Shown here: one piece after another, positions 5,052 to 8,082 of the stretch
Numbering within the stretch: the first letter of the stretch is position 1
How the letters are laid out: each line of letters opens with the position of its first letter
Source of the DNA: Bacteroidota bacterium
Lineage (GTDB): Bacteria; Bacteroidota; Bacteroidia; AKYH767-A; OLB10
NCBI GenBank assembly: GCA_024638565.1
Contig: JAHEKC010000022.1
Span: 1 to 32,353, forward strand
Length of the DNA: 32,353 nucleotides
Reading direction: 5' to 3'
The notes under the pieces: model-generated
Databases searched by the model: none
Seen by the model: only the letters and a program-made list of their open reading frames with translations
Told to the model about the DNA's origin: nothing
Position numbers and translations under genes: made by a program

Positions 5052-6101
5052 TCACTGCACCCTTGCCAGCCCCTGTTGAGCGAGCTCATATCCGGGCCGG
5101 AGGGTCATAGCGCGGGTGTAATCCGATGCCGCGGAAGACGGATTGCCAAGCGCTTCATGGCAAAGACCACGGTTATAGAAAGCTTCTGCATAACTGGAGT
5201 CCGCAGCAATGGCATCGGTATAGTGTTTCACCGCCTGGTCGTATACCTTGAGATATGAATAGTGAAGGTACCCCATGTTGAAATGCGCATGCCGGTGCGA
5301 TGGATTCAGCTGGACAATGCTGGTATAATCCTGCATGGCCAGGTCTAGTTCATCATGCTCCTGATACCAGAGCGCCCTTCCGTACAGGGCCTCCAGGCTT
5401 TCGGGGCGTATGCCGAGTGCACCGGTAAAGTACTCCACGCAGACAGGGTTGTCCGCGGCCGTAAATAACACGCCAAGTTGCATATAGGCATCATAGAATC
5501 CCTCGTCCTGCTCAATCGAACGCTGGAATCGGTTAATGGCTGAAGCGGTATCTCCTGTTTCCTTCAGGATCATACCCTGCATGAACAGGGCACGGGTATC
5601 GGATGGGTCTTTTTCGAGCAGGTACACGGCCTGGTCCATGGCCAGCTGGTATTTCCGGACAATGAAATAGATCTCCGCCAGCTTGCTTCGTGCCTCGCGG
5701 TTATCCTCATCGTAAATAAGGCATTGCTCCAATGCTTGTCGCGCATCATACATCCGGTTGGTGGCAAAGAAGATATCCGATAGCGTCAGGTAAAAGCCCG
5801 GCCGGGTGCTGTCCAGCTTCACCGCTGAAACCATATCGTCCAGGGCCCGCTGGTATTCCTGCCGGCCGATCAGGATCTTTGCACGTTCATGCCGGAGCAC
5901 GGCATTGGCAGGGTCATTTTCGATGCGTGTGGTCAGGTCATCCAGCGTGGCTACGCTATCGCCGGGAAGGCCCCTTTCTCCTGAATCAGTTCCCGGCGTG
6001 CAGGCTGCCATGGTAACCGCGGTGCAGAAAACAGCAAAAAACCAAAACGGGCGGAATGCTGCGGCAGGAGGGTATGGACTCTGGAAGGGCACGGATGCCA
6101 T
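5052..6101 (-). CDS. TPR-repeat lipoprotein, coupled to recA
   Basis: A 349-residue protein with a hydrophobic N-terminus (RPFWFFAVFCTAVTMAAC) ending in a lipobox-like MAAC, so it is probably lipidated on C34 and membrane-anchored. From about residue 52 to the end it is a run of tetratricopeptide repeats of about 34 residues, recognisable by the recurring A-x-x-x-Y/F-x-x-R-x-x-A pattern (for example near AINRFQRSIEQDEGFYDAY and AVKHYTDAIAADSSYAEAF). TPR domains bind other proteins; the partner is unknown. Its ATG (6101-6099) shares one base with the recA TGA (6103-6101), a TGATG arrangement typical of translational coupling. The two are therefore probably one transcript, unexpectedly joining a DNA-repair gene to an envelope protein. 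No specific function can be assigned. Confidence 0.88.
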   Translation of the reverse strand: MASVPFQSPYPPAAAFRPFWFFAVFCTAVTMAACTPGTDSGERGLPGDSVATLDDLTTRIENDPANAVLRHERAKILIGRQEYQRALDDMVSAVKLDSTRPGFYLTLSDIFFATNRMYDARQALEQCLIYDEDNREARSKLAEIYFIVRKYQLAMDQAVYLLEKDPSDTRALFMQGMILKETGDTASAINRFQRSIEQDEGFYDAYMQLGVLFTAADNPVCVEYFTGALGIRPESLEALYGRALWYQEHDELDLAMQDYTSIVQLNPSHRHAHFNMGYLHYSYLKVYDQAVKHYTDAIAADSSYAEAFYNRGLCHEALGNPSSAASDYTRAMTLRPGYELAQQGLARVQ

Positions 6102-7126
6102 CAGACGCTAAGCGCCTCTTTGATCTTCTGTTCGAGCTCTTCGAACAACTCGGGATTATCCGCCAGCAGCTGCTTTACCGAATCCCGGCCCTGGCCCAGC
6201 TTGGTACTTCCGTAACTGAACCATGAACCGCTTTTCTTGATCACATTGGTGTGCACGCCCAGATCGACAATCTCACCGGCTTTGCTTATCCCTTGACCGT
6301 ACATGATGTCGAATTCGGCGAGCTTGAACGGCGGCGCAACCTTATTCTTGACCACCTTGACCCTTGTGCGGTTGCCCACAACCTGGTCTCCCTCCTTGAT
6401 CTGCCCGATGCGCCGGATGTCAAGCCTCACGGATGAATAGAATTTGAGTGCGTTCCCGCCGGTGGTGGTTTCAGGGTTTCCGAACATCACCCCGATCTTC
6501 TCACGAAGCTGGTTGATGAACATGCAGCTGCAACCCGTCCTGTTGATGTTGGCCGTAAGTTTCCGAAGGGCCTGCGACATAAGCCTGGCTTGCAGCCCTA
6601 CCTTGCTTTCGCCCATTTCCCCTTCAATCTCGGCTTTCGGCGTCAGTGCCGCTACCGAATCAATAACGATCATGTCAATGGCACCGGACCGGATGAGGTT
6701 ATCCGTGATTTCAAGCGCCTGCTCCCCGTTATCCGGCTGTGAGATCAGCAGGTCCTCGAGATCAACGCCGAGCTTTTGCGCATAGTGCCTGTCAAAAGCA
6801 TGCTCTGCATCGATGAATGCCGCAATGCCCCCGGCGCGCTGCACGTTGGCAATGGCATGGATCGCCAACGTGGTCTTACCGGACGACTCGGGTCCGTAGA
6901 TCTCGATCACACGTCCGCGCGGAAATCCGCCGATACCCAATGCCATATCCAGTGAAATGGATCCGGTGGGAATGCTGTCCATGGGTTCCGTCACATCATC
7001 TCCCAGGCGCATGATGGTGCCCTTGCCGTATTGCTTCTCCAGCCGGTCTATTGCCAGCTGCAATACTTTTAGTTTTTCCTTGTTTTCCCTGGTGTCTTTC
7101 TTTTCTGCAGTTTCAGTGGTAGCCAT
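6101..7126 (-). CDS. recA: Recombinase RecA
   Basis: The DNA strand-exchange and SOS co-protease ATPase of homologous recombination. The 341-residue product carries Walker A GPESSGKT at residues 78-85, the [21 protein letters not shown] Walker B and loop 1 region, and the loop 2 region with [12 protein letters not shown]. The start ATG at 7126 gives [16 protein letters not shown], a charged N-terminus of normal length, and the C-terminus is short and acidic. It is the first gene of a two-gene unit with the TPR lipoprotein gene. About 50 nt upstream a perfect palindrome overlaps a promoter-like sequence, so repression by a LexA-type regulator is plausible; no lexA is in the window. Confidence 0.98.
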
Positions 7127-7177
7127 TATGATTGGTTTTAATTGTTGCCGAATGATTGTATTACCGTCAAAGCGGAC

Positions 7178-7213
7178 TTACACAAATGTGTAAAAATGTG
7201 CACCAATAAACAA
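7178..7213 (-). promoter_or_regulatory. Candidate recA promoter with overlapping palindromic operator
   Basis: On the reverse strand TTG (7213-7211), a 20-nt gap and CACATTTG (7190-7183) match the Bacteroidetes TTG/TAnnTTTG promoter with one mismatch. Covering the -7 box is the palindrome TTACACATTTGTGTAA (7193-7178), with 7-bp perfect arms around two unpaired bases. A repressor there would block the promoter. The ATG follows 51 nt downstream. Confidence 0.5.
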
Positions 7214-7554: not shown

Positions 7555-7956
7555 TCATTTCGAATCTCCGGCGTCGGCATCACCGGTTTTGGGGTCCTTG
7601 GTTTCCGAAGGCGTGTCTCCAAGATCATCATACTCCACATCTGCGAACCGGCTTTTCACGGAGTCCCCGCCGGGTTGTTCAAGAGGCTTCGCATTTTCAC
7701 CAATGTAGCCCACGGCTTCCTTGAAGCCGTCCAGGAACTTATCAAAATCCTCCCGGTACAGGAATATTTTGTGCTTTTCATAGAAAGGCTTTTCGCCTTC
7801 CTTGGTAAATCGTCTTTTGCTTTCGGTAATGGTCAGGTAAAGGTCATTCGATCTGGTGGACTTCACGTCGAAAAAATAAGTCCGCTTACCTGCACGTACC
7901 GCTTTGGAAAAATGCTCTTCCCGTTCCGGGTGATCCGTGTGTTCCTGGTCAGCCAT
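7555..7956 (-). CDS. PUR-domain / DUF3276 nucleic-acid-binding protein
   Basis: A 133-residue protein whose core, about residues 17-83, reads RAGKRTYFFDVKSTRSNDLY, TITESKRRF, HKIFLYREDFDKFLDGF. This is the DUF3276 family, common in Bacteroidota and related to the PUR-alpha fold of the Borrelia DNA/RNA-binding protein BpuR. The tail from about residue 90 is acidic and low-complexity (DVEYDDLGDTPSETKDPKTGDADAGDSK region). I chose ATG 7956 (MADQEHTDHPERE). A longer frame from TTG 7995 is possible, but the -7 box TACATTTG lies inside that extension, so the extension would not be transcribed. Nucleic-acid binding is inferred from the family; target and role are unknown. It is a stand-alone gene with its own promoter. 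Confidence 0.85.
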   Translation of the reverse strand: MADQEHTDHPEREEHFSKAVRAGKRTYFFDVKSTRSNDLYLTITESKRRFTKEGEKPFYEKHKIFLYREDFDKFLDGFKEAVGYIGENAKPLEQPGGDSVKSRFADVEYDDLGDTPSETKDPKTGDADAGDSK

Positions 7957-7983
7957 AATGCTCCCTATCAATGGTATAGGGAA

Positions 7984-7991
7984 CAAATGTA
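7984..7991 (-). promoter_or_regulatory. -7 promoter box of the PUR-domain gene (TACATTTG)
   Basis: TACATTTG matches the Bacteroidetes -7 consensus TAnnTTTG exactly and lies 27 nt before the ATG at 7956. It decides the start, because the alternative TTG at 7995 is upstream of the box. The -33 region is T-rich without a clear TTG. Confidence 0.55.
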
Positions 7992-8082
7992 ACAAAAAGA
8001 TAGTGGAAAAATAATCCTCCCGAAATTCACAACGACCTCATACAGTGCACATTGCGAATCCGGTGGCCACCGTGGTAACCGT

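Follow-up and report, generated by a model that had tools for sequence, protein, structure and literature searches.

A conserved site near a promoter palindrome and a phage-type repressor probably switch on recA after DNA damage in an uncultivated Bacteroidota bacterium

In the window analysed here (the whole stretch of 32,353 bases), recA is very probably, at roughly 0.85 by our own estimate, an SOS gene repressed by a single S24/CI-type repressor through a site at positions 7152–7170; self-cleavage of that repressor would then lift the repression of recA, of dnaE2 and of its own gene, with the inverted repeat at 7178–7193 being a −7 promoter element that carries chance symmetry. The case is built on what was computed: a motif common to the promoters of the repressor gene, dnaE2 and recA, its conservation, the distance from promoter to operator, and the domains and catalytic residues of the repressor. 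A sequence-only reading of this DNA had proposed a lineage-specific SOS operator at recA and had placed it on the inverted repeat; the existence of such an operator now seems very likely, at 7152–7170, whilst the inverted repeat is unsupported as that operator.

Working upstream from recA (341 amino acids; 6101–7126, minus strand; PF00154, E = 2e-140; TIGR02012 above cut-off), we see a −7 element on the same strand, CACATTTG at 7183–7190, which differs from the consensus TAnnTTTG by one mismatch, and 20 nt upstream of it the TTG of a −33 element (7211–7213, within CTTGTTT). The available text of PMC12632263 gives the −7 consensus as TANNTTTGY. It is because CACATTTG is near-consensus and has this TTG at the stated distance that we regard the promoter assignment as a good one; here the earlier description, a near-consensus Bacteroidetes promoter, is borne out. 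At two further loci (L033 and L037), CTTGTTTTTC is found at the position matching the −33 element of recA. A scan for E. coli-type sigma-70 promoters returned one match, which is at chance level and represents a promoter type irrelevant here.

The predicted SOS operator of recA, TTGACGGTAATACAATCAT (7152–7170, minus strand), lies on the downstream side of the −7 element at a distance of about 12 nt, and is composed of one good half-site (ATACAATCA) and one degenerate half-site (TTGACGG). Upstream of the genome's own S24 gene we find TTGATTG-CTATA-CAATCAA, that is, the pattern TTGATTG-N5-CAATCAA. A preset-free dyad scan, covering 256 4-bp half-sites with 13 spacers (0–12), was run on upstream regions from which near-duplicates had been removed (25 of 30 kept for recA, 26 of 30 for the S24 genes of relatives and 68 of 80 for the S24 genes of named loci); TGAT-N9-ATCA came out as the top dyad at recA (8/25 against 0.2 expected) and at the named S24 promoters (22/68 against 0.8), and as second at the S24 promoters of relatives (7/26 against 0.35), just behind GATT-N7-AATC. 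Both dyads belong to a single site.

The bacterium's own genome comprises 3.02 Mb in 165 contigs and is 97.5% complete. Searched with TGATTGTANTACAATCA at up to three mismatches, it holds six places against three for the control: the S24 gene (C35:1742), a dnaE2 gene (C37:14574 and 14551), recA (7153–7169), and C30:3745 and C137:8100, the last two with no clear gene. At two mismatches there are only three places in the 3.02 Mb, lying upstream of the S24 gene, dnaE2 and recA. The dnaE2 product is a DnaE2-like polymerase (PHP plus pol III alpha), and directly upstream of its gene are two operators 23 bp apart (C37:14551–14590; L093). Predicted operators in this genome stand at −88 and −65 for the S24 gene, −48 and −25 for dnaE2, and −44 for recA. 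We also scored sites with a 19-column matrix, the weights of which came from the S24 promoters of other genomes only (71 of 109 promoters were used, near-duplicates and those shorter than 80 nt having been removed and our own left out; 46 gave a site). The recA site scores 18.8 bits, ranking first in the window ahead of a site at 8.9 inside an ORF; the consensus that seeded the matrix had been read by eye from the recA and S24 promoters together.

Amongst the 61 genomes, TGATTGTANTACAATCA at up to one mismatch occurs in 21 places against two for the control: seven at recA, four at S24 genes, one at dinB, three upstream of dnaE2 at no more than about 310 nt, five inside ORFs, and a remaining one about 750 nt from a putative dnaE2. 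With the matrix, 21 of the 36 order genomes and 1 of 16 further members of the class have a recA operator scoring at least 11 (null 1.5%; the recA genes of G040, a fragment, G042 and G058 lie outside these counts), and so do 19 of 30 upstream regions of dinB and 9 of 30 of dnaE2 (null 0.7% for both). For the named S24 loci the figure is 51 of 80, including 17 of the 25 with Bacteroidales-type labels, S24 sets that overlap the matrix training set. Because the genomes are related, none of these counts are independent.

Within the order, the recA operator goes with the presence of the S24 gene (20 of the 28 genomes that have the gene, against 1 of the 8 that lack it; p = 0.005 by Fisher's test); across all 52 genomes the link is weak (p = 0.051). 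For 47 of the 52 the recA upstream region was extracted at the outset, the other five being added by coordinates for this association. Eight of the 28 order genomes with an S24 gene have no recA site scoring at least 11 (G002, G007, G012, G023, G029, G035, G039 and G041). Genus g6 deserves separate mention: all five of its recA promoters that were examined (L035, L036, L038, L039 and L041) are without the operator, although two of these genomes, G012 and G023, encode the repressor, and a contraction of the regulon in this genus is possible.

As to geometry, 22 recA promoters have an operator score of at least 11, and in 13 of them the TTTG of the −7 element lies 15–16 nt before the start of the operator; reckoned from the −7 element, the operator would span roughly +7 to +25. 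Second sites, where present, keep a distance of 23 or 24 bp to the first at the named S24 promoters (43 of 48 second sites) and at those of relatives (17 of 19), and one of 24 bp at recA (8 of 10). Our own genome has paired sites at its S24 and dnaE2 promoters and a single site at recA, where the next best score is −1.6.

The genome contains a single Peptidase_S24 gene (C35:1829–2626), and its product joins an HTH_3 domain of Cro/CI type (PF01381, residues 7–62, E = 1.2e-11) to a Peptidase_S24 domain (residues 134–222, 27.3 bits against a cut-off of 23.3). Residues A115, G116, S153 and K192 are invariant across 22 aligned relatives. An AlphaFold model of the protein is of low confidence (pLDDT 68.6, pTM 0.38); with that limit, its best matches in the PDB are LexA chains, SinR-type HTH structures appearing lower down. 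Compared with the PDB by sequence, the repressor has no match. A canonical LexA can be set aside as SOS repressor here: its winged HTH, LexA_DNA_bind (PF01726), gave no match in this 97.5%-complete genome, positive controls having been detected. The question of whether the genome encodes a lexA, raised with the original proposal, has a two-part answer: the canonical LexA domain is absent, and there is a single S24 repressor, whose HTH is of CI type. A phage source for the repressor was likewise rejected, a scan of viral_contigs giving 31 pattern matches with no relative among them.

A dinB-type polymerase gene lies divergent from, and near, the S24 gene in our own genome, and 28 of 61 genomes show this arrangement (48 of the 61 have an S24 gene). 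Genus g5 includes three genomes, G004, G011 and G016, in which the S24 gene immediately precedes recA and is transcribed in the same direction. Between our own dinB and S24 genes sits a gene for a protein of the 23S rRNA intervening-sequence type (PF05635; C35:1165–1545; L102); this dinB has no operator in the 500 bp upstream of it. The nearest named S24 loci belong to Bacteroidetes metagenome-assembled genomes (MAGs; identity up to 70%), followed by relatives labelled Chitinophagales, Chitinophagaceae or Chitinophaga (59–68%) and others with Bacteroidales-type labels (L162–L207; 55–58%); on these identities we would assign the genome to the class Bacteroidia and to no lower rank.

From these data we infer binding, repression, and RecA-dependent cleavage, release and induction by the S24 repressor, as follows. 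A dimer of the repressor would bind TTGACGGTAATACAATCAT at 7152–7170, immediately past the −7 element, where it would block transcription of recA. On DNA damage, activated RecA filaments would cause the repressor to cleave itself between Ala115 and Gly116, with Ser153 and Lys192 as the putative catalytic dyad, and the cleaved protein would let go of recA, dnaE2 and its own gene.

What, then, of the inverted repeat? At 7178–7193 the sequence reads TTACACAAATGTGTAA on the plus strand and TTACACATTTGTGTAA on the recA strand, and its overlap with the −7 element is probably incidental. It takes the form TTACACA-AA-TGTGTAA, two perfect 7-bp arms around an A-A at positions 8 and 9 that does not pair; with its two central bases unpaired, it amounts to an inverted repeat spaced by 2 nt and not to the perfect 16-mer palindrome it had been called, though the repeat is real and does sit on the recA promoter. 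Across the whole window there are 29 dyads with arms of at least 7 bp and spacers of 0–8, against 28, 24, 20, 13 and 23 in five shuffles, and one dyad with 7-bp arms and a 2-nt spacer, against 0–4 in five shuffles; in the 428-bp intergenic region of recA, at least one such dyad arises in 22% of 500 shuffles. Given the window counts and this shuffle rate, the dyad is unremarkable and no more than chance expectation; most likely it is a chance symmetry decorating the promoter itself.

To read the repeat as the SOS operator, at which a dimeric repressor would sit and shut off recA, as was originally proposed, is not without attraction. It lies on the −7 element, where a bound repressor would exclude polymerase; of 25 non-redundant recA upstream regions, 3 (our own included) carry the reduced dyad TTAC-N8-GTAA against 0.05 expected, with the dyad sitting by inspection on the −7 element; and the centre of the repeat is 24.5 bp from that of the operator, close to the 23–24 bp spacing of paired operators, so that it occupies the place of a would-be second operator. 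Against this, our own genome has no copy beyond the repeat itself at 0–1 mismatch, and the two copies at two mismatches lie inside an ORF (C52) and beside what we take, from its translation, to be trmB (C85), neither near a repair gene. Nor is there any enrichment, whether in our own genome at up to three mismatches (35 places against 44 for the reversed-pattern control) or in the 61 genomes at up to one (30 against 34). Of 34 recA upstream regions of the order, a single one (our own) has it when one mismatch is allowed and 2 have it when two are allowed, and TTAC-N8-GTAA is absent from the S24 promoters of relatives (0/26) and of named loci (0/68). In 12 relatives with the same distance between TTTG and operator, only one to three of the seven arm pairs form in the same register, from which it follows that the −7 element of recA is conserved and the symmetry is not; on the operator matrix, moreover, the repeat scores −11.4. 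We therefore reject it as the SOS operator on the strength of the own-genome and relative searches, in which it does not recur upstream of the SOS repressor or of repair genes, and consider that reading highly improbable. It fails the very tests named with the original proposal, which the site at 7152–7170 passes. The lesson is a practical one: before an eye-catching promoter palindrome is named an operator, it should be compared across relatives.

Somewhat less improbable, yet still unlikely, is that the repeat serves a different regulator of recA, or is of DnaA type, and in either case acts apart from the SOS operator. Its 7-bp arms on the promoter fit such a role, as does TTTTACACA (7187–7195 on the recA strand), which matches TTWTNCACA, the DnaA-box consensus; the repeat is, however, not conserved in relatives, not enriched in the genome and within chance. 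As for the operator motif, GATTG-N5-CAATC might be a promoter or activator element common to repair genes and not a repressor site at all, for which its recurrent distance from TTTG at recA would speak. We think this improbable, since the distance of the motif to the start codon ranges widely (−31 to −243), since within the order the motif tracks the presence of S24, and since it also precedes the gene of the S24 repressor, often as a pair of sites, the published SOS repressors of the phylum being autoregulated according to the available text of PMC8565304. Repression of recA by the S24 protein through 7152–7170 is the reading we prefer.

A precedent for such a repressor exists in the non-canonical LexA of Bacteroidetes described by Sanchez-Osuna et al. 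(2021; PMC8565304), which has a CI-type HTH (PF01381) with S24 and for which self-cleavage is described as involving an Ala-Gly bond together with a Ser-Lys dyad; the available text describes two motif groups, CTAA-N5-TTAG and GGA-N5-TCC (the latter mainly in Flavobacteriaceae), both reported absent from Bacteroidales, together with a diverged site, TTAC-N5-GTAA, in Elizabethkingia anophelis and diverged motifs within the family. With the CTAA-N5-TTAG group as presented there, our system shares the CI-type HTH plus S24, the Ala-Gly and Ser-Lys residues, a site before the repressor's own gene, a regulon that takes in dinB and polymerase genes of dnaE type, an N5-centred dyad and, in some promoters, multiple sites; it differs in its half-site, TGATTG or TGATTA in place of CTAA, and in that the repressor also occurs in loci labelled Bacteroidales. 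Exact CTAA-N5-TTAG is found in none of the 80 named S24 promoters and, in the dyad scan, in 0/25 recA, 1/26 relatives' S24 and 0/68 named S24 upstream regions; exact GGA-N5-TCC is found in 0/80 named S24 promoters, and TTAC-N5-GTAA in 0/25 recA upstream regions. The GGA-N5-TCC group and the E. anophelis site have in common with our case the protein family and the idea of motif drift (PMC8565304); the TTAC…GTAA of the latter outwardly resembles the repeat at 7178–7193, but its gap is 5 nt and not 8. Since diverged motifs are reported in PMC8565304, the mismatch in motif bars membership of either group and not of the wider family. A search of the main text of that paper for ATTG and CAAT did not find GATTG/CAATC, a motif that its Supplementary Table S10 may hold.

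By its domain make-up the S24 system belongs with the non-canonical LexA of Bacteroidetes, and it would appear to work like it; what we predict is an operator motif specific to this lineage, in a type of system already known, beside a palindrome that is ordinary. Canonical LexA has the S24 domain and the SOS role in common with our repressor, and differs in its winged HTH (PF01726), absent here. Lambda CI likewise combines a CI-type HTH with an S24 domain and acts on paired operators, which in lambda are about two helical turns apart; unlike CI, the repressor here is chromosomal and would act on repair genes, with no relative in viral_contigs.

More tentatively, and at somewhat less than even odds, a broad branch of the Bacteroidia, including Bacteroidales-labelled lineages, may run its SOS response with a CI-type S24 protein of a third specificity, TGATT(G/A)-N5-(C/T)AATCA, acting on site pairs fixed at 23–24 bp. 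It is this fixed spacing that suggests two dimers side by side, which could bind cooperatively in the manner of lambda CI and give a switch-like response at the repressor gene, dinB and dnaE2; our own recA, with its one lopsided site, might then be derepressed first. For these uncultivated Bacteroidota we thereby arrive at a predicted operator and a predicted regulon (repressor, dnaE2 and recA, with dinB in relatives). The S24 relatives with Bacteroidales labels, and their sites, fit badly with the absence from Bacteroidales reported in the available text of PMC8565304, if the labels of the MAGs are right.

Either side of recA, two further genes may be noted. Upstream, on the same strand, is a gene for a DUF3276 protein (7555–7995 of the window). 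Downstream, the ATG of a gene for a TPR-repeat protein (5052–6101, minus strand) overlaps the TGA stop codon of recA by one base (6099–6103); because of this overlap the TPR-repeat protein is probably co-expressed with recA, and it may also be under SOS control.
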